Source: Rhodoferax sp. (lineage in GTDB: Bacteria > Pseudomonadota > Gammaproteobacteria > Burkholderiales > Burkholderiaceae_C). Taken from it: DNA of 64,000 nucleotides. Position numbers and translations under genes: made by a program. Each line of letters opens with the position of its first letter. The first letter of the stretch is position 1. Below, one piece after another: positions 50,651 through 64,000 of the stretch. The notes under the pieces are model-generated. The model had not been told where the DNA came from, ran no database searches, and saw only the letters and a list, made by a program, of their open reading frames with translations. The stretch lies in the NCBI GenBank assembly GCA_020048895.1, contig JAIFLV010000043.1:1-64000 (forward strand). The letters run 5' to 3'.

Positions 50651-53600
50651 TCAGGCGCTCCCATAGACTACCGATGCGCCAGACGCCGAATACTGACCAT
50701 CAGTTCGTCGCGCAGGGCAATGAATTTGGCCAAACCCCCCTCTACTGCCACACGGTCCCCTGCAATCATGTGTTCGACCAACTCGCGCGCATGGGCATGG
50801 ACACGGTCGTGGCTTGCCATCATGGCGGCAAAGGCTTCGTGGCTTCCATAGCGGGCGCGACCCTCTGCAGTGATCCACATGCCTAGCGGGCAGTAGCGGG
50901 CAGTCTTGCACATCCAACGCTGGGCAAACTTCACTTTTTCCGGTGACATAGTTTTCTATATCGCGCAGCCAATGGCGATGTTTGATCTCGCCGACGACCA
51001 GATCGCGACGGGTATCGTCATCGCTCGGCTGGTTCCACGCGGCCCAGCTGGCATCGGCCTGCCAGGTAGAAATCCACCCCGGGACGGCATTGGGGGGCAT
51101 GGCATGGGCAATGCCATAACCCTGGCCCAATTCGCAACCCAGGGCCAGCAGTAGTTCACCATGCGCCACGGTCTCCACGCCCTCGGCCAGCACGCCCCGA
51201 CCGAACGCCCGGGCCAGCCCCAGGACGCCTTCCACGATGACAAAATCATCCGAGTCGTGAAGCATGCCGATCACAAAACTCTGGTCAATCTTCATCAGAT
51301 CGGCCGGCAAGCGCTTCAGGTACGTCAGCGACGAGTAGCCGGTGCCAAAGTCGTCCAGCGAGAAACCCAACCCCAGATCGCAGCAGGCCTGCATGATGGC
51401 CGTGACCTTGTCGATGTCGTCCAGCGCACTGGTTTCCAGCACCTCGAGATCAAGCTGAGACGCGTGAACGCCAGGGTGTTGGGCCAAGGTTTCCACCAGG
51501 CTCGGGACAAACCGGCTTTGCTGCAGGTGCAGGGCATCGATGTTGACGCTCACCGATAGTTTCAAGCCCAGAGCATTCCAGGCAGCGAGTTGGGTTACTG
51601 CGGTGCGAACCACCCATTCACCCAACTGCACGATCAGCGGGTGGCCTTTCACAGTCGGCAAAAACTGTCCTGGCAGTACCAGGCCCCGGGTGGGATGCTG
51701 CCAGCGGATCAGGGCCTCCATGCCGATGACCTGGCCCGTTTTCATATTCACTTTGGGTTGGTAGTGCAGAACGAACTCGCCACGATTCAGGGCAGACTGA
51801 AGTTCATCGATAGATTCGCGGTGCGTCTTGACGTCGGCGTCGTCCTTCACATCGAAATAGTGGTAGCGGTTCTTGCCGGCCTGCTTGGCCTGGTACATCG
51901 CGTGGTCTGCGTGGCGCAACAGGAGGTCGGGCTCACCTGCGTCGTGGGGAAAGAGCGTGACTCCAATGCTGGCCGATATCTGGATTTCGGCGCCGTTGAC
52001 GACCATCGTTTGTGCGGCCGCTTCCAGCAGCCGGGTCAGAACGAGTTCGCAGTCGCGTGGGTGGTCCAGTGCCGTCAGCACCGCGACAAACTCGTCCCCC
52101 CCGATGCGTGCCAGCGTATCGCCTTCGCGCAGGGCAGCTTTCATCCTCTGCGCCAAACCTATCAAGACCTCGTCGCCGATGGTGTGGCCGTACTGGTCAT
52201 TGACCAGCTTGAATCCGTCGAGGTCGATGAATACCACCGCCAGCTGTTTGCGCTGGCGCAGACAGTGCGCCATCTCCTGCTGCAAGCGGTCTGCCAGCAG
52301 CGCCCGATTGGGTAGCCCGGTCAGCATGTCGTAGCGGGCTATGTGTTCAAGTTCCTGTTCATGTGCCTTTTGCACGCTGATATCGGTGAACAGGGCCACG
52401 TAGTTCTGAACCTTGTTGTTCGAGTCGTACACTGCGCTGATGCTGAGCAACTCCGGGTACATATCGCCGCTCTTGCGCCGATTCCAGATCTCGCCTTCCC
52501 AATGTCCCATGGTATTGAGCGACTGCCACATACGAGCGTAGAAAGCAGCGTCTTGCGTGCCCGATTTGAGGAACGAGGGCGTTTGCCCAATGGCGTCATC
52601 CTCGGAATACCCGGTAATGCGTGAAAAGGCAACGTTGACCTGAACGATGCGGGAATTGGCGTCGGTAATCAGGATGCCTTCGCGCGCCCAGGTAAACACA
52701 TTGGCCGAGAGTTGCAGGTTGGCCTGAGCTTGCTTGCGCTGGGTAATGTCCTGGGCAATGCCCAGATAGCCGGTAATCGTATTGGTTGCATTCTTGACAG
52801 CCGTCACCACCAGTGCCACATCGATGGTTTCGCCATTCTTGCGGACGTAAGTCCATTCCCGCTGTTCCTGACCATCGCGGTCAGGGATGGCGACAAACAC
52901 GCCAAATCCGTGCGGCGACGTTCCCAGTTCGCAAGCCAACTCCTGACCACGTAACGCCACTTCGGCCTCTACGTGAAAATCCACTACGTTGAGACGTCCG
53001 ATGACTTCCGCGGCGCTGTAGCCCAGCGTGCGCTCGGCACCACGGTTAAACACCTGGATGACGCCGCTCGCATCGGTGGAGATGATGGACACTTCGGACG
53101 CCGCGTCCAGCAGCGACTTGTAGTGCTGGTTCGCAGTGAGGGCTGCTTCGGTGGCTTCACTGATGGCGGTAATGTCGACCCGGAAGCCCACCGTGTAGCC
53201 ATCTTCGGTGCGGCGCTCCAAAATGCGCAACACCCGGCCGTTGTCCGTCTTCTGCGTGATGGTGGTGTTGCCAGACCGGTGCGCTGCCATGCGCTCTGCA
53301 ATCCATGCATCAATTCGCCCATGGGCTTGCGGGTACTGCCCCCGCAGCGCTCCCGTACGCAGAATTTCTTCAAAGCTGGCACCCGGAACCAAGAGGTCGG
53401 CACTGGTGGCGTAGAGGGTTTTGTAACGCTCGTTGCAATAGACAAAGCGGTCCTGCGGATCGAACAAGACGAAGGCCTCATCAACCGATTCGATCGACGC
53501 CCGCAGAATGCGTTCGTTTTCGAGCAGGTCCGTTCGCACGCCATGCTCTTGAGTGATGTCTGTGACAAATCCATGCCATAGCACACTGCCATCGTCCAAG

Positions 53601-54820
53601 CGCGTGGGCTTGGACATGCCGCTGAGCCAGCGCAGGCCGCGCTCAGGCGTTTCCACACGGTACTCACAGGCCCAGTTCTCCAGCGAGCGGGCGGACTCGG
53701 CAATCGATGCGTACACCCGGTCTATGTCCCCGGGATGGATCACCTTGAAGACAGCGGTTGCGTCCAGGCGCACATCCTCAGGGGAAACTCCATACACCGC
53801 TTCGATGCCCTTGGAGGCATAGGGAAAGCACGATCGCCCATCCGGGAACCACTGGTACTGGTAAATAACCCCGGGCAACTGGGCTGCAAGGTTCGTGATC
53901 AACCGGTTCGCTGCGTCAGCCTTTTGCTCTGCAAGAATCCTCTCGGTAATGTCGAGAACAATCGAGTACAGCAGCGTGCGCCCATCGATTTCGATCGGAC
54001 CGCAGTGCACCTCCACCGGCACTTCCGTGCCATTGGCCAGGCGCATTGTCTGCAGGGTTTCTGAAGGGTCCGAACCACTGATGCGGGTAAATGGCATGCC
54101 CTCCAGGTCATTGTCGGCATAGCCGTAAAAGCGCTCTGCCGCTGAATTGCCACGTACCACGTTTCCGGTCTCAGGATCAATCAGCAACATGGGAACGCGT
54201 GAATCTTCGAACAGCGCCCGATGCCTGGCTTCGCTGCGCAGAACTTCCCGGTGGCTCACCGCGAGGCGGCGTTCATAAGTGCGGTCCACCAGCACCATCA
54301 AGCGCTCGTCATTGTCAATTGCGGCCGGGTCCACCGTGATGAGGTGCGCATCCACCTCCGTGGAAGGGGCGTCGCGGGGTGCCATGAGCTGCACTTCCGT
54401 TGCGCTGGATACCTCCAGGCCGTGGCCCAGCACCGAATAGAGTTTGGAGCGGCTCTCGAAGGCGAACAACTGGTAAACCGAGCGGCGCTGCAGTGCGGCT
54501 TTGGCGTGCAAACCAAAATGACTTCGGGCCGCGGCATTGGCTTCCACGATGAAACCCTGTCCGTCTACCGTCAGGGCATCCATCGGCAGGTTTTCAAAGA
54601 GGCGCCGGTAGCGGCGCATGGCCGACTCGGTCTGCATCTGCGCTGCCTTCAAATCCTGGTTCTGGATTTCCAGCTCGGTCTGGTAGACGCGCAACTCTTC
54701 CACTATACGCAGCGCGTCCATCATGTCGTCGGGCACTCCGGGCTGCCGGACAGGTGCGGAGCCCATAGCGGCAATAGCCCGCTGACGCAGCCGTTCAATT
54801 TCCATGTCCATTGTTCTCAT
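50651..54820 (-). CDS. Six-PAS GGDEF-EAL protein with frame-shifted C-terminal CZB domain
   Basis: This is a roughly 1389-residue cyclic-di-GMP sensor as read. After an N-terminal coiled coil (1-75) come about six PAS domains (80-825). A GGDEF domain follows (LARIGGDEF at about 907, with RxxD inhibitory site REGD) and an EAL domain (MEALIRW at about 1033, DDFGTGYSS, MKIDQSF). The last about 110 residues as read are Cys/Arg-rich and unlike protein. Their +1 frame gives a proper CZB domain, so the true end is probably 50668. The ATG at 54820 overlaps the upstream stop (ATGA) and has AGGGA before it. Confidence 0.88.
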   Translation of the reverse strand: MRTMDMEIERLRQRAIAAMGSAPVRQPGVPDDMMDALRIVEELRVYQTELEIQNQDLKAAQMQTESAMRRYRRLFENLPMDALTVDGQGFIVEANAAARSHFGLHAKAALQRRSVYQLFAFESRSKLYSVLGHGLEVSSATEVQLMAPRDAPSTEVDAHLITVDPAAIDNDERLMVLVDRTYERRLAVSHREVLRSEARHRALFEDSRVPMLLIDPETGNVVRGNSAAERFYGYADNDLEGMPFTRISGSDPSETLQTMRLANGTEVPVEVHCGPIEIDGRTLLYSIVLDITERILAEQKADAANRLITNLAAQLPGVIYQYQWFPDGRSCFPYASKGIEAVYGVSPEDVRLDATAVFKVIHPGDIDRVYASIAESARSLENWACEYRVETPERGLRWLSGMSKPTRLDDGSVLWHGFVTDITQEHGVRTDLLENERILRASIESVDEAFVLFDPQDRFVYCNERYKTLYATSADLLVPGASFEEILRTGALRGQYPQAHGRIDAWIAERMAAHRSGNTTITQKTDNGRVLRILERRTEDGYTVGFRVDITAISEATEAALTANQHYKSLLDAASEVSIISTDASGVIQVFNRGAERTLGYSAAEVIGRLNVVDFHVEAEVALRGQELACELGTSPHGFGVFVAIPDRDGQEQREWTYVRKNGETIDVALVVTAVKNATNTITGYLGIAQDITQRKQAQANLQLSANVFTWAREGILITDANSRIVQVNVAFSRITGYSEDDAIGQTPSFLKSGTQDAAFYARMWQSLNTMGHWEGEIWNRRKSGDMYPELLSISAVYDSNNKVQNYVALFTDISVQKAHEQELEHIARYDMLTGLPNRALLADRLQQEMAHCLRQRKQLAVVFIDLDGFKLVNDQYGHTIGDEVLIGLAQRMKAALREGDTLARIGGDEFVAVLTALDHPRDCELVLTRLLEAAAQTMVVNGAEIQISASIGVTLFPHDAGEPDLLLRHADHAMYQAKQAGKNRYHYFDVKDDADVKTHRESIDELQSALNRGEFVLHYQPKVNMKTGQVIGMEALIRWQHPTRGLVLPGQFLPTVKGHPLIVQLGEWVVRTAVTQLAAWNALGLKLSVSVNIDALHLQQSRFVPSLVETLAQHPGVHASQLDLEVLETSALDDIDKVTAIMQACCDLGLGFSLDDFGTGYSSLTYLKRLPADLMKIDQSFVIGMLHDSDDFVIVEGVLGLARAFGRGVLAEGVETVAHGELLLALGCELGQGYGIAHAMPPNAVPGWISTWQADASWAAWNQPSDDDTRRDLVVGEIKHRHWLRDIENYVTGKSEVCPALDVQDCPLLPARHVDHCRGSRPLWKPRSLCRHDGKPRPCPCPCARVGRTHDCRGPCGSRGGFGQIHCPARRTDGQYSASGASVVYGSA
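50668..50949 (-). pseudogene. Out-of-frame CZB (chemoreceptor zinc-binding) domain
   Basis: In the +1 frame relative to the EAL gene, this segment encodes a CZB-like domain: CPLGMWITAEGRARYG followed by ASHDRVHAHARELVEH. The first conserved histidine (HRHWLRDIENYV) is still in the EAL frame. The two frames join at an A5 run on the minus strand (T5 at 50935-50939 on plus). Removing one A would fuse them into one continuous protein ending at 50668. CZB domains bind zinc through three His and one Cys and sense hypochlorous acid or zinc in homologues. Confidence 0.72.
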
Positions 54821-57741
54821 ACTTGATCCCTCGTGAACCATGCGGTGACATTGATGTGACTGACGACGGCACCCAATGATGGACCGTGGATCGGTGCCAC
54901 GTTCATCACGAACCAGCGCTGTTCAGTCGGTGAATGGCACGGGTATTCGATCGAAAATCCTGGCAAAGTTCCCTCCAAGACCCCACGCAGGCCGCGCAGC
55001 GCGGCCGTCGCCGAGGTGTCGTTGAGTTGCTGGTCCATATTGCAGGCACTGAGGTAATTGGCACCAGGGCCAGAGGCCTTGAGCTCCGGGTCGCCATTGG
55101 CCATGGCAAATCGCTTCCAGGCCGCATTCACCACCCGGATCGTGCCGTCGGCCTCCAGCACCGCCACATGTTCGGGCAAGCCGTCCAGAATGGCCTGCAG
55201 GCGTTTGGCGTCGTGGTAGGCACTGACATCTACAAACGACATCACCGCACCTCGACCAATGGTCGACGGAATGGAATAGGGCAGCATGCGCACAAACAGC
55301 ATGCGGTCACTGTCCACCGATCCCACCTCACACTCGATCGCCTGGCCACTCTCCAGCGTATGGGCGAGGTCCTCCATCAATCCGGGGTAGCGCAGGCTGT
55401 GGGAAATGTCATCCAGCGGGCGACCCACGTCGGTATCCCTGAGCTTGAAGATGCCGGCCGCATCCGGGCTAAAGCGGGTAATGGTCATGCCCGCATCGAC
55501 AAACACGGTGGCAACGCCGGTGGCGCGCCCCATGCTTTCCAGGTCCGCATTGACGCGGTTGATCAACAGCATCTTCTCCTGGTACTCGGCGTTGACGGTG
55601 TTGAGCTCTTCGTTCACCGATTGCAACTCTTCATTGGAGCTTTGCAACTCTTCGTTGGAGGCCATCAATTCCTCGTTGGTGGCCTGCAATTCTTCGTTGG
55701 AGGTTTCCAGTTCCTCGATGGTTGACTGCAGGCTTTCGCGCGTGGCCGATAACTCGCGCTCCAGTCCGTCAATGCGTGTCATGGTCTCTATGCCCACGTC
55801 CACCGGCTTGAACGCCTCCTTCACGTTGACCACCTCTGCTTCAAAGCACAGCATGGTCAGGCGCTCTACACCCTCACTCTTCATGCAGTGGGCTGACAGC
55901 CTGACCGAGCGCACCTCGCCGTTGCGCAGTGTCACCTGGATCGGATCTGACAAAAGCGAGCACTGGTCCTTGATGGACTTGTAGAGCAGGGCCGAGGCGA
56001 TAGGGACCAGCGGGTCGAGCAGCAACCGGTTGACCGCCAGACTGGCTGACCCCTGTTTGGCCTGGATGAACGGGTTGACATCGCCAAACAGGTGCACCGC
56101 TTCGTGGGTTTCATTAAAGATGATGGCCGGTGGTGCATAGTGGGACAGCAAGGTGGCAACCCCGGTATCGACCGGGCTGGCGGAAGCGGCTTGTATGGGC
56201 GATTTGCGGCGTGCGTCCGCCGGTAACAGCCGGGTGCGGCTGCCGCCCTTGGTGTGGTGCTCCAGCAGGGGCAGGATGCGGTCTGCCGTGCGGCGAAACA
56301 GCTTGTGCTTGGCGCTGATCACTTGCAATGCATCGGTCATCATGGCCACCGATTCGCTGGAGCCCAGAAACAGGGTGCCGCCGCCATTGAGTGCGTAGAG
56401 CAGGGCGTGCAGCACACGCTCCTGCGCGGCCGGCTTGAAGTAGATCAGCGTGTTGCGGCACAGCACCAGGTCCATCTTGGTGAACGGTGGGTCGGACAAC
56501 AGGTTCTGCCGGGCAAACACAATGCACTGACGTAACTCTGTCTTGATGAGGTAGGAGTTGCCTTTGTTGATGAAGAAGCGCTCCAGGCGTTCTGCCGAAA
56601 TCTCGGCGGCAATGGTTTCCCGGTAGTTGCCGATACCCGCTTTCTCGATCGCCTGGTGGTCCACGTCGGTGGCAAAAATCTTCAGCGTGGGCCAGCGCTT
56701 GAGGCGGTCGAAGGTCTCCAGAAACAGCATCGCGATGGAGTAAGCCTCTTCGCCGGTGGCGGCGCCCGCGATCCAGACCCGGATGGTGTCCTGGCTGGCA
56801 GTGGCTTCCACCAGTGGGGCTATCACTTTCTCGGCCAGCACATCGAAGGCCTCGGGGTCGCGAAAGAAACTGGTCACCGAGATCAGCATTTCCTTGCGCA
56901 GGGTGAGCATTTCGTCGCGGTTGTTTTCCAGCAACTCGAGGTATTGGTGCAGCTCCGGGGTGTGGCGGGCCTGCATGCGCCGCTCCAGGCGGCGCATGAT
57001 GGTGGCAGGCTTGTAGTCGGAGAAATCGATGCCGCCAAGCTGGTACAGCAACTGCAAAATTTCGGCGAACACATCGTCATTGGTCAGCGCCGAGTGGGGT
57101 GTGACCGGCAGTACCGGGCGGTGGTCGTCGTAGGGCTCGTTCAGGATATGCGCCATCAGGCGCAGCGGCAACTCTTCGGCCGGCAGCACGTCACCCATCA
57201 CACCGGTGGCAATGGCGCTGCGCGGCATGCCATCGAACTTGCTCGACTCCGGCTCCTGCGCCATGAGAAAGCCACCCGCAGCATGGATGGCGACAGCACC
57301 CCGGGTGCCATCGGTGCCGGTGCCCGACAAAATAATGCCGACCGCTTTCTCGCGGTAGATCTCGGCCAGGGAGGATAGGAAAATATCGATCGGCAGCGTC
57401 AGCCCCTGGGTTTTCTTGGGCTTGAGGTGCAGGTGCCCGGGTGACACATGCATGATGGAGCCCGGCGGGATCAGAAACACATGATCGGCCTTCAGCGGCA
57501 TGTCTTCTTCGACCATGATCACCGGCATCTCGGTGTGGCGCGAGAGCAGGGTGTTCATCATGCTCTTGTGGTCCGGCGAGAGGTGCTGTACGACCACGAA
57601 GGCGGCGCCAGTATCGGTCGGACAGGCGTCAAAAAAACGCTCCAGCGCGTCGAGTCCCCCGGCCGATGCGCCAATGCACACCACATGCGCGTCAAACTTG
57701 GGCTTTTCGGCGACGCTGTCATCCACGGGGGTATCAGTCAT
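54817..57741 (-). CDS. CheB-CheR-coiled coil-PAS fusion protein
   Basis: This is a 974-residue fusion. A CheB methylesterase domain without receiver occupies about 18-205 (catalytic serine in CIGASAGG, histidine in VVQHLSPDHK, aspartate in SGTGTDGTRGA). A CheR methyltransferase domain covers about 220-495 (SFFRDPEAFD, SAM loop AGAATGEEAYSIAML). A coiled coil of repeated SNEELQ-type units lies at about 660-735, and two PAS-like regions follow to the end. No histidine-kinase domain is present. It overlaps the upstream regulator by eight bases and the downstream GGDEF-EAL gene by four, so all three are coupled. The methylated target is unknown. Confidence 0.92.
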   Translation of the reverse strand: MTDTPVDDSVAEKPKFDAHVVCIGASAGGLDALERFFDACPTDTGAAFVVVQHLSPDHKSMMNTLLSRHTEMPVIMVEEDMPLKADHVFLIPPGSIMHVSPGHLHLKPKKTQGLTLPIDIFLSSLAEIYREKAVGIILSGTGTDGTRGAVAIHAAGGFLMAQEPESSKFDGMPRSAIATGVMGDVLPAEELPLRLMAHILNEPYDDHRPVLPVTPHSALTNDDVFAEILQLLYQLGGIDFSDYKPATIMRRLERRMQARHTPELHQYLELLENNRDEMLTLRKEMLISVTSFFRDPEAFDVLAEKVIAPLVEATASQDTIRVWIAGAATGEEAYSIAMLFLETFDRLKRWPTLKIFATDVDHQAIEKAGIGNYRETIAAEISAERLERFFINKGNSYLIKTELRQCIVFARQNLLSDPPFTKMDLVLCRNTLIYFKPAAQERVLHALLYALNGGGTLFLGSSESVAMMTDALQVISAKHKLFRRTADRILPLLEHHTKGGSRTRLLPADARRKSPIQAASASPVDTGVATLLSHYAPPAIIFNETHEAVHLFGDVNPFIQAKQGSASLAVNRLLLDPLVPIASALLYKSIKDQCSLLSDPIQVTLRNGEVRSVRLSAHCMKSEGVERLTMLCFEAEVVNVKEAFKPVDVGIETMTRIDGLERELSATRESLQSTIEELETSNEELQATNEELMASNEELQSSNEELQSVNEELNTVNAEYQEKMLLINRVNADLESMGRATGVATVFVDAGMTITRFSPDAAGIFKLRDTDVGRPLDDISHSLRYPGLMEDLAHTLESGQAIECEVGSVDSDRMLFVRMLPYSIPSTIGRGAVMSFVDVSAYHDAKRLQAILDGLPEHVAVLEADGTIRVVNAAWKRFAMANGDPELKASGPGANYLSACNMDQQLNDTSATAALRGLRGVLEGTLPGFSIEYPCHSPTEQRWFVMNVAPIHGPSLGAVVSHINVTAWFTRDQV

Positions 57742-59020: not shown

Positions 59021-59165
59021 CGCAGTTGACACTGGCACACCCGACCGAAAGGCGGGGTCGCAAAACTTCCGGTCTACCGTTTCCATTTCGGAAACCACGA
59101 TAGCGGGGCCACCAAAATGCCACTGGCTTTCATGCCAGCCGTTCTGACAGTGTTGATTCGTAAAC
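59021..59165 (+). promoter_or_regulatory. Cyclic-di-GMP-I (GEMM-I) riboswitch, copy 1
   Basis: The aptamer (about 59029-59116) matches the GEMM-I consensus: a closing helix TGGC/GCCA, the CCGAAAGG tetraloop helix, CGCAAAACTTCCGGTCTA, a second helix TTTCC/GGAAA and GATAGCGGGG. GEMM-I RNAs bind c-di-GMP and control motility, pili and secreted proteins. The region after it has a CTGGC/GCCAG hairpin (59123-59138). Its GCCAG could also pair with CTGGC at 59032-59036 in the aptamer's first strand, a possible switching element. No poly-T terminator follows, so translational control or RNA stability is likelier. Confidence 0.9.
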
Positions 59166-59191
59166 CTTGACTAACCAAAAGGAATTTTGCG

Positions 59192-62116
59192 ATGACCGTT
59201 CATACCGTTTCCAAACCGTGGCTGCGGGCTGCCTTGCTGGGGATGTTTGCCAGCGTATGCACAAGCGTGATAGCCGTCCAAACCACCCCGGCGGCCGGCA
59301 CACAACTGATCAACGGCAAGGCGTTTTTCAGCACGTCGTGCGCCGGCGAAAACAAGACCTGCAGTTTCACAGGGTCGCGTGCCGTCGCCTACGGTGCCAA
59401 TGGAAAATTCGTTACCAGGCAGCTCACGGGGCCTGTGGCATGCAACAACACCACCTTTGGCGACCCCATCAAGGGAACCTATAAATCCTGCTACATGGAT
59501 GTGGTCACCTTGGGCAACGTAGCAGCCACAGATACAGCAACCGGTGCGGCCATTGCGCCACCTGCTGCAGGTCTGGTCACGCCTCCGGCCAAGCAGGTCA
59601 AGCTTGTCACAACGGGGGCCTGGAAAGATGTGACCAAGGGCTTGCCCGAAGGCGGCCTGCCCGCCCATTTGGCGGTGATTGGGTACTCGGTGTTTGCTGG
59701 TATGAACACCAGCATGGGTAAGTACATCTACCGCTTCGATGTGACGAATCCTCTGGCCGGCTGGGTGGTTCACACCCGTTTCAATGATCCTTACAACGCG
59801 ATCGACCTCATCGCCATCGATGGTGAACTCTTTGCTGGCGGGCACAGCAGCGCGTATTGGATCAGTCAGGACAACGGTCCGGATGGCAGGGCCATTTACA
59901 GTCTGGGTGCTGCACCGGGTGGTGTCGGCAACATCGTCGCCGGACGCGGTCGCATCATTGCCCAGAACGGTGGCGATGGCTCGCCCAAGGTCTGGACCCT
60001 GAACATCCATGCCATTCGGTCAGCCAGTGCCAGCCAGAAGGCAGCCGCCATGCTGGCTCCGGTGGGCCAACGACAGATCGCCAAGTTGCAACCGCTGGGG
60101 ACGTGGATTGATACCGGGTTGAACATTGCCGTGAACAACGCCAAGCCGCATACCCAACTGTTTGAAGACGGACAACAAAACATTTGGTATGTCACTAACT
60201 ACGCAGACAACGCCACGAACAACGGCGGTGCATTCAAGTATGACGGGCACCAGTGGAGCAAGCAGTTTGGTGCCCTGAGTCAGGCCTATGGCGGTGGCCC
60301 TGGGACTGGCAATGCAACAGGCCAATTCAGCGTGATCAGGAATGGCACCATGCTGGTGAGCTTTGAGCGCGCGCCAACCACACAGGTCAGTTCCACCTTC
60401 CGCTACGACCCCACATCCGCCAGCCCGTTCAAGGAGCAAGGTGCCTTGGTGCCTGTAGCCAGCAGCCCGGGCTACGGGGTGGGTTCTTTCCAGTTTGATG
60501 CAGACAAGAACGTTGTGTTGGCATCGCGCTTCGGTCATTTCATGCTGGGTGGAAGCGGAGCCAAAGCCGGGCTCAAACGCTGGCAATTGCCCGACCCCAT
60601 GGAAGGTTACTCACTCAGCGATGAGCAGAAGCTGCGCACCACCGTTCGCAGCGCGGTGACCGCTTCGGATGGCACCATCGTCGCCTACCAGGAAGACGGA
60701 GTAGGTGCCTGGCGCATGATTGCCTACAAGCCCGATATGAGCAAACTGCCCTACTACAATGGCGCCATTGATCTGGAGAGCGGTGCGGTGTTGGCACAGA
60801 CCGATGCCGCCACCGAGGCCATGACCGTACGCTGGCTCGATGCGGGCAACCTGATCGCCGCATTCAACAGCACGGGCACCGTGTCCTTTGGGGAAACCTG
60901 CGTCAAGGCGTTTGCCAAAGCGGTGTGCGGCCAGGGTGCGCTGGCTACCTTGACTTCATTTGGCGCGGTTACGCGGACCATGCGCCTGGACAGCAGCGTG
61001 CTCGACATGGAGCAACGCACCCTGGACGGCGTGCCCCACGCTGCACTGGCATTGGCCGATGGCTTCGCAGTCATTGATCTGCGCACCAATGCTGTTGTGG
61101 GGACACAAGCCAACACCGGCGCGCGGCGCATTGACCTCAGTTCCAATGGTCGTATCGCCACCTTGGCCTACAACAGCGGTACACAGCGCTATGAGGTCAA
61201 GCTCTATGCTGGCATGACTCAGTTTGCCGCCAATGCCCCAGTCTTCACGTACCAGGCGCAGCGAAGCTATGTGGAGGATGTCGTGATTGCCGACCAGCGA
61301 CTGGCTCAGCCCGAACGCGTGGTGCTGGTTGGGTTTGACAATAAGCGCCTGCCTGGTGGCAACCCGGTGCAGGTTGCATTTGCCCAGGGGCTGGATCTGA
61401 CAGGTGCCACACAGTGGACCAAGTTCGGATTCAACGGCGCGGACCTATCGACCAACGTTGCCGACACCCGGCTGTACCGTGCACGCGTCAACGCGCAGGG
61501 CGCGCTGTATATCACAGGCGAAACGGCGGGATCGCAAAGTATCTTCCGCTACAACGGTAATGTGTTCTCGGGCAGCGAGATGCTCAGTTACACCGACTTC
61601 TACAACCAGCTGTGGAATACCGGTAGCGCTCATGAGTCCTACTACGCGCAGCTCAATCCCGCTACCGGTGTCATTGAGCAGTCGCAACTGGCGATGTCCC
61701 GCTTGTCCAGCGGCAAGTCCAATACCTTCCGCGTAAGAGACATCGCCGCAGCCAATGACCGTGTCTTCATGCCCGCTGTGGGCGCCGCATTTATCGGCAA
61801 CCGCAATGCCAACGTACTCAACGGCCGACCGGTAGGTGAGTATGCGGGTGGCGATCCGGTGCTGCTGGCCGTCGATGGCAAGAATTTTGCCAACCGGCTG
61901 GCCTGGACCACCTTCAGTCGCAGCAATAGCGCAACGGGAGACATGCGTTCGGTCGATGTGTTGGGCGACAAGGTGGCCTTGCTCGGTTTTGCCAAGGCCA
62001 CTGGCACCAGTACCGCCAGTGTCGGCTGCGGTGCGGGCGATTGCAGTGTTGACACGGTGGCTCGTCCCTACCTGGTAGTGCTCGACAGCGAGGTCAATTT
62101 CGGGCTCGGCCGCTGA
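59192..62116 (+). CDS. Secreted 974-residue protein, propeller-like, with shared Cys module
   Basis: The signal peptide (about 1-29) is followed by a roughly 60-residue module at 36-103 with four cysteines (GTQLINGKAFF, then YGANGKFVTRQLTGPVACNN and FGDPIKGTYKSCYMD). The same module occurs in the GH9 protein downstream. The remaining about 800 residues are beta-rich with repeated short strands and loops, suggesting a beta-propeller, but I recognise no enzyme motif. The AAAAGGA ribosome binding site is eight bases before the ATG. It is preceded by riboswitch copy 1. A secreted role in polysaccharide recognition is inferred from module and context. Confidence 0.8.
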   Translation: MTVHTVSKPWLRAALLGMFASVCTSVIAVQTTPAAGTQLINGKAFFSTSCAGENKTCSFTGSRAVAYGANGKFVTRQLTGPVACNNTTFGDPIKGTYKSCYMDVVTLGNVAATDTATGAAIAPPAAGLVTPPAKQVKLVTTGAWKDVTKGLPEGGLPAHLAVIGYSVFAGMNTSMGKYIYRFDVTNPLAGWVVHTRFNDPYNAIDLIAIDGELFAGGHSSAYWISQDNGPDGRAIYSLGAAPGGVGNIVAGRGRIIAQNGGDGSPKVWTLNIHAIRSASASQKAAAMLAPVGQRQIAKLQPLGTWIDTGLNIAVNNAKPHTQLFEDGQQNIWYVTNYADNATNNGGAFKYDGHQWSKQFGALSQAYGGGPGTGNATGQFSVIRNGTMLVSFERAPTTQVSSTFRYDPTSASPFKEQGALVPVASSPGYGVGSFQFDADKNVVLASRFGHFMLGGSGAKAGLKRWQLPDPMEGYSLSDEQKLRTTVRSAVTASDGTIVAYQEDGVGAWRMIAYKPDMSKLPYYNGAIDLESGAVLAQTDAATEAMTVRWLDAGNLIAAFNSTGTVSFGETCVKAFAKAVCGQGALATLTSFGAVTRTMRLDSSVLDMEQRTLDGVPHAALALADGFAVIDLRTNAVVGTQANTGARRIDLSSNGRIATLAYNSGTQRYEVKLYAGMTQFAANAPVFTYQAQRSYVEDVVIADQRLAQPERVVLVGFDNKRLPGGNPVQVAFAQGLDLTGATQWTKFGFNGADLSTNVADTRLYRARVNAQGALYITGETAGSQSIFRYNGNVFSGSEMLSYTDFYNQLWNTGSAHESYYAQLNPATGVIEQSQLAMSRLSSGKSNTFRVRDIAAANDRVFMPAVGAAFIGNRNANVLNGRPVGEYAGGDPVLLAVDGKNFANRLAWTTFSRSNSATGDMRSVDVLGDKVALLGFAKATGTSTASVGCGAGDCSVDTVARPYLVVLDSEVNFGLGR

Positions 62117-62140
62117 GAGAGTACCGGTGTCCTATACCGG

Positions 62141-62205
62141 AATCACAAATCGTTACAAGTCTGTGCAGACCAAATTCTCGGAATATGGGCAGCCGCTGGT
62201 AACAT
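62141..62205 (+). promoter_or_regulatory. Candidate promoter of second riboswitch-linked gene
   Basis: This copy has the same layout as the first: AATCACAA and TTACAAG (62141-62159), then TAACAT (62200-62205) six bases before the riboswitch repeat. The TTACAAG to repeat distance is ten bases shorter than in copy 1, about one helical turn. It lies only 24 bases past the preceding stop, with a weak CCGGT/ACCGG hairpin (62124-62140) between. Confidence 0.4.
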
Positions 62206-62210
62206 GACTG

Positions 62211-62355
62211 CGCAGTTGACACTGGCACACCCGTCCGAAAGGCGGGGTCGCAAAACCTCCGGTCTACCGTTTCCATTTCGGAAACCACGATAGCGGGGCC
62301 ACCAAAATGCCACTGGCCTTCAAGCCAGCCGTTCTGACAGTGTTGATTCGTAAAC
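62211..62355 (+). promoter_or_regulatory. Cyclic-di-GMP-I (GEMM-I) riboswitch, copy 2
   Basis: This copy is nearly identical to copy 1, with about four differences in 145 bases. Differences are in loops or preserve the fold: CCGTCCG for CCGACCG, ACCTCC for ACTTCC (closer to consensus), and two changes in the downstream hairpin loop. All GEMM-I elements noted for copy 1 are present. It leads to the GH9 gene 26 bases further on. Confidence 0.9.
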
Positions 62356-62380
62356 TTTGTTCCACTCAAGGAGTTTTGCG

Positions 62381-64000
<1,620 letters not shown>

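Follow-up and report, generated by a model that had tools for sequence, protein, structure and literature searches.

The first 64,000 nucleotides of contig JAIFLV010000043.1, from the Rhodoferax sp. assembly GCA_020048895.1 and here termed the window, carry near their right-hand end two almost identical RNA leaders, each followed by a gene. Both leaders belong to the cyclic di-GMP-I (c-di-GMP-I, or GEMM-I) riboswitch class. The first lies before a gene here called gene 1, and the second lies before a gene for a predicted cellulase of glycoside hydrolase family 9 (GH9). Here, we describe the two riboswitches and their genes, and weigh a mechanism in which the core of the aptamer would also mask the ribosome-binding site. 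The aptamers, named RS1 and RS2, and the coding features are listed below.

59024-59116, forward strand: c-di-GMP-I riboswitch aptamer copy 1 (RS1), full-length match to RF01051 (1-87), 55.7 bits
59192-62116, forward strand: gene 1, an open reading frame of 974 amino acids with a hydrophobic N-terminus (by eye), the shared lectin-like module and a remainder of unknown family
59297-59530, forward strand: shared module in gene 1, a putative SUEL-type (rhamnose-binding-lectin-like) domain, from profile match and structure model
62214-62306, forward strand: c-di-GMP-I riboswitch aptamer copy 2 (RS2), full-length match to RF01051 (1-87), 58.2 bits
62381-64000, forward strand: GH9 gene, open reading frame cut by the window end, PF00759 at 3e-74
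62744-62962, forward strand: GH9 gene copy of the shared module, with 78% identity to that of gene 1
63080-64000, forward strand: N-terminal part of the GH9 catalytic domain, with the DAGD stretch, from PF00759 (from residue 234) and alignment to Thermobifida fusca E4 (1js4)

The first-pass annotation had identified two 145-base blocks as riboswitches and called them near-identical. Both statements are borne out. Against a gathering cut-off of 35 bits for RF01051, cmscan of the Infernal package gives E values of 3.6e-8 for RS1 and 8.4e-9 for RS2, and the blocks are identical at 141 of 145 positions, differing at 59044/62234, 59067/62257, 59128/62318 and 59133/62323. On sequence and covariance grounds both blocks belong to the known class of c-di-GMP-I riboswitches and would be expected to bind c-di-GMP. 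The two copies read CTGGCA at the position that we take to be G20 (the numbering being likewise assumed), where a guanine presumably separates c-di-GMP-I riboswitches from variants for cyclic AMP-GMP. The whole window assembly (4.6 Mb, 188 contigs, 91.4% complete) contains RF01051 at these two sites only. The class itself is frequent, being found in 59 of 101 genomes searched, the window genome included (103 matches counted, with 92 loci taken in and 11 left out), so that the special feature of the locus is the pairing of the copies and their targets.

The coding regions had been described as unrelated except for one module, and this holds: the longest coding repeat between the two genes is the module itself, 237 nucleotides at 72% (59267-59503 and 62723-62959). 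The GH9 gene runs beyond the window to contig base 65131 and encodes 916 amino acids; its start is placed at ATG 62381 in preference to the mechanically chosen TTG 62357 because a Shine-Dalgarno (SD) sequence precedes the ATG. The product is a predicted cellulase, matching PF00759 over profile positions 1-442 of 444 (251.4 bits, cut-off 27.7). It consists of an N-terminal beta/gamma-crystallin domain (PF08964, 1.3e-6), the shared module, a linker rich in proline and threonine (PT-rich), and the GH9 domain. The GH9 domain and the stretch downstream of it align to T. fusca E4 as far as E4 residue 550, and residues 744-916 align with 2xfg (176-residue chain, 2.6e-7); unlike E4, the window protein bears the N-terminal beta/gamma-crystallin domain, lectin-like module and PT-rich linker. 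For gene 1, neither Pfam nor NCBIfam returns a family at the thresholds applied (Pfam E 0.001). Its N-terminal part meets only two unrelated Pfam families at E 1, both weakly (0.18 and 0.26), and none at E 0.001, and the remainder past the module has no PDB match at E 1. A structure model of gene 1 from a two-row alignment reached a mean predicted local distance difference test score (pLDDT) of 27.3, from which nothing is drawn. Both proteins are probably exported, as judged by eye from their hydrophobic N-termini.

A scan of named genomes returned one relative of the GH9 protein, in the metagenome-assembled genome (MAG) Bin_4_4 of Hydrogenophaga sp., at 89% identity in the best segment. The relative is preceded by RF01051 (67.0 bits), and before that lies a homologue of gene 1 (84% identical), giving the order gene 1, riboswitch, GH9 that is common to both genomes. 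A second leader of this MAG, at 65.9 bits, lies at the end of another contig. The contig of the gene 1 homologue begins within a matching leader, so the second leader is most naturally assigned to gene 1. The contig with the first leader also carries an S-adenosylhomocysteine riboswitch (RF01057, 48.6 bits, L137:4019-4129).

In these leaders the stretch GGA[A/G]TTTTGCGA, which runs from the SD to the first base of the start codon, is complementary to the aptamer core, TCGCAAAAC[T/C]TCC, over 12 pairs with one bulge. The first-pass annotation had overlooked this potential expression platform.

59058-59070, forward strand: TCGCAAAACTTCC in the RS1 core, candidate anti-Shine-Dalgarno (anti-SD) strand within the aptamer, 12 canonical pairs with 59181-59192
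59181-59192, forward strand: gene 1 SD and spacer to the start-codon A, GGAATTTTGCGA, complementary to 59058-59070
62248-62260, forward strand: TCGCAAAACCTCC in the RS2 core, candidate anti-SD strand, 12 canonical pairs with 62370-62381
62370-62381, forward strand: GH9 gene SD and spacer to the start-codon A, GGAGTTTTGCGA, complementary to 62248-62260

All 12 canonical pairs are kept in the four leaders found, two in the window and two in the Hydrogenophaga MAG. One pair of this SD helix varies in a compensatory manner, being U-A in RS1, C-G in RS2 and U-G in both MAG leaders, and a neighbouring pair is A-U in the window and G-U in the MAG. In none of the four leaders does any other segment pair with the SD as well as the core does, the margin being at least 7 kcal/mol (RS1, -15.9 against -7.6 for the next partner; RS2, -18.2 against -8.9). 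Among 20,000 dinucleotide-shuffled leaders, the observed duplex energy is reached by 91 for RS1, 38 for RS2, and 17 and 7 for Hydrogenophaga RS1 and RS2. The three lowest z-scores among 89 riboswitch-gene pairs scored (from 93 items) belong to this leader family (-3.75, -3.88 and -4.32); control pairs have mean z-scores of 0.02 (n=86) and, in a second set of which 27 of 29 were scored, -0.32 (n=27), and none of the 113 falls below -3.5. The two window copies agree at seven of 14 positions in the linker before the SD and at 14 of 15 in the stretch from SD to start codon; the latter is identical at 15 of 15 between RS2 and both Hydrogenophaga leaders.

A second set of proposed pairings would close the aptamer from outside through a long P1 stem, 12 of 12 pairs of which are present in the four leaders, and a further hairpin is predicted within it.

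59023-59034, forward strand: proposed 5' strand of the long closing stem P1 of RS1, pairing with 59148-59160 with one bulge
59148-59160, forward strand: proposed 3' strand of RS1 long P1, pairing with 59023-59034
62213-62224, forward strand: proposed 5' strand of RS2 long P1, pairing with 62338-62350
62338-62350, forward strand: proposed 3' strand of RS2 long P1, pairing with 62213-62224
59123-59138, forward strand: RS1 hairpin between aptamer and P1 3' strand (CTGGC-loop-GCCAG), predicted fold
62313-62328, forward strand: RS2 hairpin between aptamer and P1 3' strand, predicted fold

The SD helix uses bases of the core and of P3 and crosses the long P1; therefore the two folds are mutually exclusive on paper. 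The reading that we favour, by a small degree, is a translational ON switch in which high c-di-GMP would allow translation of both gene 1 and the GH9 gene. Without ligand, the strand TCGCAAAACYTCC, which supplies the adenine of the binding pocket and the 5' side of P3, would pair with GGARTTTTGCGA, covering the Shine-Dalgarno sequence, the spacer and the first base of the AUG and blocking ribosomes. Binding of c-di-GMP would lock the TCGCAAAACYTCC strand in the aptamer and let the long P1 close, in which case no SD helix could form and both genes would be translated, each under its own riboswitch copy, with conversion keeping the copies alike. Such a switch, with the core as anti-SD, would be an unusual variant, and we hold it to be somewhat more likely than not.

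Predicted energies fit leaders poised between the two folds, though the sign differs between the window copies: RS2 is computed at -60.9 kcal/mol when blocked and -59.2 with P1 closed, and the free minimum-energy fold of the longest RS2 and Hydrogenophaga RS2 versions is the SD-blocked one. The mean pair probability of the SD helix is 0.02 in RS1, 0.89 in RS2, 0.69 in MAG RS2 and 0.68 in MAG RS1.

Several results count against such a switch. The complementarity was spotted by eye beforehand, a choice for which the shuffle counts are uncorrected, and the leaders are all related to each other. In raw duplex energy the controls L011 (-18.5), L111 (-20.0) and L105 (-18.4) equal or pass them; z-scores are all that sets the leader family apart, and the control start codons, assigned by rule, could be incorrect. 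The idea that c-di-GMP-I riboswitches in general work by core-SD pairing was considered and is dismissed because the control z-scores centre near zero. RS1 is computed to be more stable with P1 closed (-57.2 kcal/mol) than blocked (-54.5), and with its SD helix disfavoured, ligand-free RS1 may stay unblocked. When the exact SD helix is enforced in the Hydrogenophaga leaders, it falls short both of the ensemble (-66.0 against -72.6; -78.8 against -85.8) and of the P1 state (-70.5 and -82.0). Forcing the aptamer raises the mean chance of an unpaired SD in only one of 12 foldings and leaves it equal or lower in 11, because other pairings replace the SD helix, in energies that leave out tertiary contacts and the ligand. 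Finally, the window aptamers lack two pairs at the base of P3 and could bind their ligand poorly.

The forced foldings also bear on an OFF switch, in which the SD would be masked by a different segment once the ligand-bound fold has formed. The SD is mostly paired when the aptamer is forced (unpaired chance 0.19 to 0.49), as such a switch would have it, but the strongest SD partner, by the margin given above, is the aptamer core, which bound ligand would occupy. We regard an OFF switch as decidedly improbable.

The hairpin behind the aptamer raises the question of transcriptional control instead, through Rho-dependent or intrinsic termination around 59123-59138 and 62313-62328, with the SD complementarity as a by-product. 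The hairpin stands at the same place in all four leaders despite a stem sequence that differs between the two genomes, a different and stronger one being predicted at the matching place in Hydrogenophaga; it is followed by GTTC in the window and by GTTCGTTTC in Hydrogenophaga. However, a terminator scan found no terminator-like site in either leader region, a weak negative given that 0.6 and 0.3 sites were expected by chance. The hairpin is moreover present in both the P1 and the SD-blocked folds, and so need not switch, and transcriptional control leaves the conserved TTTTGCG before the start codon unexplained. Termination is thus an unlikely account of these leaders.

The base of P3 is where the aptamers depart from their class. 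The first-pass annotation credited both blocks with every hallmark of GEMM-I; this stands for the covariance score and for P2, intact in both copies, and only in part for P3, whose two outermost pairs are A.C and A.C in each. Among 118 distinct aptamers scored of 120 (the second Hydrogenophaga copy being outside the set), the outermost P3 pair is broken in 44, namely the two window copies and 42 others, and the second pair (here numbered position 50) is broken in two, the window copies only. The change may reflect either threshold tuning or decay. Under decay, which is compatible with the other readings, the two lost pairs would have weakened binding and left the leaders constitutive or permanently blocked. 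The rarity of the second break, confined to the window, agrees with this, as do window scores lower than those of the Hydrogenophaga copies. Against it, the core positions that we take to be ligand contacts (G20, A47 and C92 in Vc2 numbering) look unchanged, the copies are still identical at all but four of 145 bases, and the base that breaks the P3 pair at position 50 gives the SD helix an A-U pair in place of the G-U of Hydrogenophaga, which could be tuning. Decay is accordingly given a low probability.

How the two copies came to be alike can be judged from the relatives. In a set of 399 genomes of the family, drawn evenly from a larger group, the leader is matched over most of its length in the window genome and the Hydrogenophaga MAG only, and over shorter parts in a further 65. 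In a four-way alignment the window copies are identical at 141 of 145 positions and the MAG copies at 151 of 155, and leader pairs across genomes are identical at 118 to 121 of 145, with 10 gap columns. Of the ungapped sites in the block and onward to the start codon, 22 group the copies within genomes and none groups orthologues, which argues for concerted evolution of the copies. The claim that near-identity arose by duplication or conversion is thereby upheld and narrowed. Because gene 1 precedes GH9 in both genomes, the likeness of the copies is most simply explained by an older duplication followed by conversion, and separate duplications in each genome are a possible alternative. A wider common neighbourhood was also sought and rejected: none of the window's MerR, CheB-CheR and GGDEF-EAL proteins is matched in the MAG bases compared (8,000 of 14,142, plus 6,057), so the two-gene unit may have moved. 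Among 103 genomes of the genus, full-length gene 1 occurs in the window genome only, and of 12 other gene 1 matches, five of them in the window genome, all but one are limited to the module region.

If the translational ON switch is combined with conversion, a more specific picture can be offered tentatively, at somewhat less than even odds. The pocket and the SD would compete for 13 bases without a separate expression platform; the P3-base changes would have weakened the aptamer, strengthened the SD helix and raised the c-di-GMP level needed for GH9 production; and conversion would have copied this setting to both genes, giving them one shared threshold.

Comparison with known systems places these leaders within GEMM-I by aptamer sequence and secondary structure, the GAAA tetraloop hairpin and the GCAA core. 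They differ in lacking the two pairs at the base of P3, in a proposed P1 3' strand that starts about 30 nucleotides behind the aptamer, past an extra hairpin, and in a core complementary to the SD over 12 pairs. Several similar c-di-GMP-I aptamers close together are also known from Bc3-5, reportedly of Bacillus thuringiensis. Bc3-5 is described as a triple tandem within one 5' untranslated region (PMC4759541), whereas here a single aptamer precedes each gene. The closest functional likeness is to Vc1 of Vibrio cholerae, a c-di-GMP-I switch before the secreted, polysaccharide-related chitin-binding protein gene gbpA and a published target; c-di-GMP is reported to regulate positively through Vc1, the authors saw no apparent terminator or anti-SD in the Vc1-to-gbpA interval, and they left the mechanism open (PMC4744006). 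The window leaders, in contrast, have a candidate anti-SD inside the aptamer, and the target is a predicted hydrolase. Putative Aeromonas chitinase genes, likened here by their description, are related published targets and likewise glycoside hydrolases (PMC6366702), with chitinase there and GH9 here.

The first-pass annotation had suspected that a GH9 enzyme under a c-di-GMP riboswitch is not a standard case. This agrees with the literature: no example appears in the titles or abstract beginnings searched, a coverage that excludes most subscription papers, and as far as searched GH9 is a new target. Nor was RF01051 found near 29 other GH9 loci of the family draw (299 genomes, 22 with GH9) or near 19 of 44 other GH9 places of the phylum draw (398 genomes, 28 with GH9), in flanks of up to 1.5 kb that are shorter at contig ends and from which leaders of proteins with long N-terminal parts may escape. 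In another genome of the same order, a gene for a predicted GH5 cellulase (PF00150, 1.8e-40; L039:211-1499) lies 173 nucleotides behind RF01051, which would make it a second predicted cellulase target of a c-di-GMP-I riboswitch.

The module shared by the two proteins, about 70 residues long, is putatively lectin-like, a label taken from profile and model and not made firmer. A profile built from an alignment of 14 copies matches rhamnose-binding lectins at a whole-sequence E of 1.6e-9 over repeats, the best single stretch reaching only 0.042. The model of the module has a pLDDT of 89.2, and its top Foldseek match, 5h4s, has a probability of 0.98 yet an E of 0.4; nothing was found by Foldseek at E 0.001. 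Elsewhere in the window genome, two copies of the module and a crystallin-type domain are fused to DUF1800, beside a DUF1501 protein (L139:3805-7865), and L140:2-1339 appears by eye to be a second copy of this fusion, cut by the contig end. Neither stretch contains an Rfam match.

Other loci linked to c-di-GMP came to light in the course of this work. The riboswitch locus itself is flanked by two PAS-GGDEF-EAL-type genes of the opposite strand, one in the window (50651-54841, by Pfam) and one beyond it (L003:9309-11959, by eye), the latter as two overlapping open reading frames in different frames, which could mean a broken gene or a misassembly. The first genes behind c-di-GMP-I switches at L004, L019, L021, L023, L028, L034 and L061, from other families of the order, share by eye an LLNECRDMA-type N-terminus. 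Within the window genus, a near-identical c-di-GMP-I leader of about 250 nucleotides, composed by eye of an upstream hairpin, the aptamer, downstream hairpins and a ribosome-binding site, stands before different genes at 28 loci, up to four per genome (L033, L043, L050, L059, L062, L070, L072, L073 and 20 others). PADLOC, applied to 20 first genes of these loci, returned eight defence matches, seven in the first 10 genes, which were picked partly for a defence-like look, and one in the next 10. They are RT_UG14 (2e-195), PD-T4-2_A (3e-135), PDC-S19 (2e-119), PDC-S20 (9e-59), PDC-S31 twice, NsnB/AAA (3e-33) and MTase_II (7.5e-68). Several of the matching genes start more than 250 nucleotides behind the aptamer, and a short gene may intervene. 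An attC-like motif was considered around this defence-associated subfamily, and no consistent motif was present in the 28 loci. A c-di-GMP riboswitch leader common to anti-phage genes may thus exist and be worth a study of its own; no published case was found in the literature searched, so far as its partial text extends.

For the two genes of the window, the grouping of leader copies within genomes provides a clean case of a regulatory RNA held uniform between neighbouring genes. If the proposed switch is correct, RNA alone would couple production of a predicted cellulase directly to c-di-GMP, which signals the attached state, and we infer that the purpose is a secreted attack on polysaccharides in that state. 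The switch would also explain how a c-di-GMP-I riboswitch might work with neither a terminator nor an anti-SD element of its own, the question left open for Vc1 (PMC4744006).

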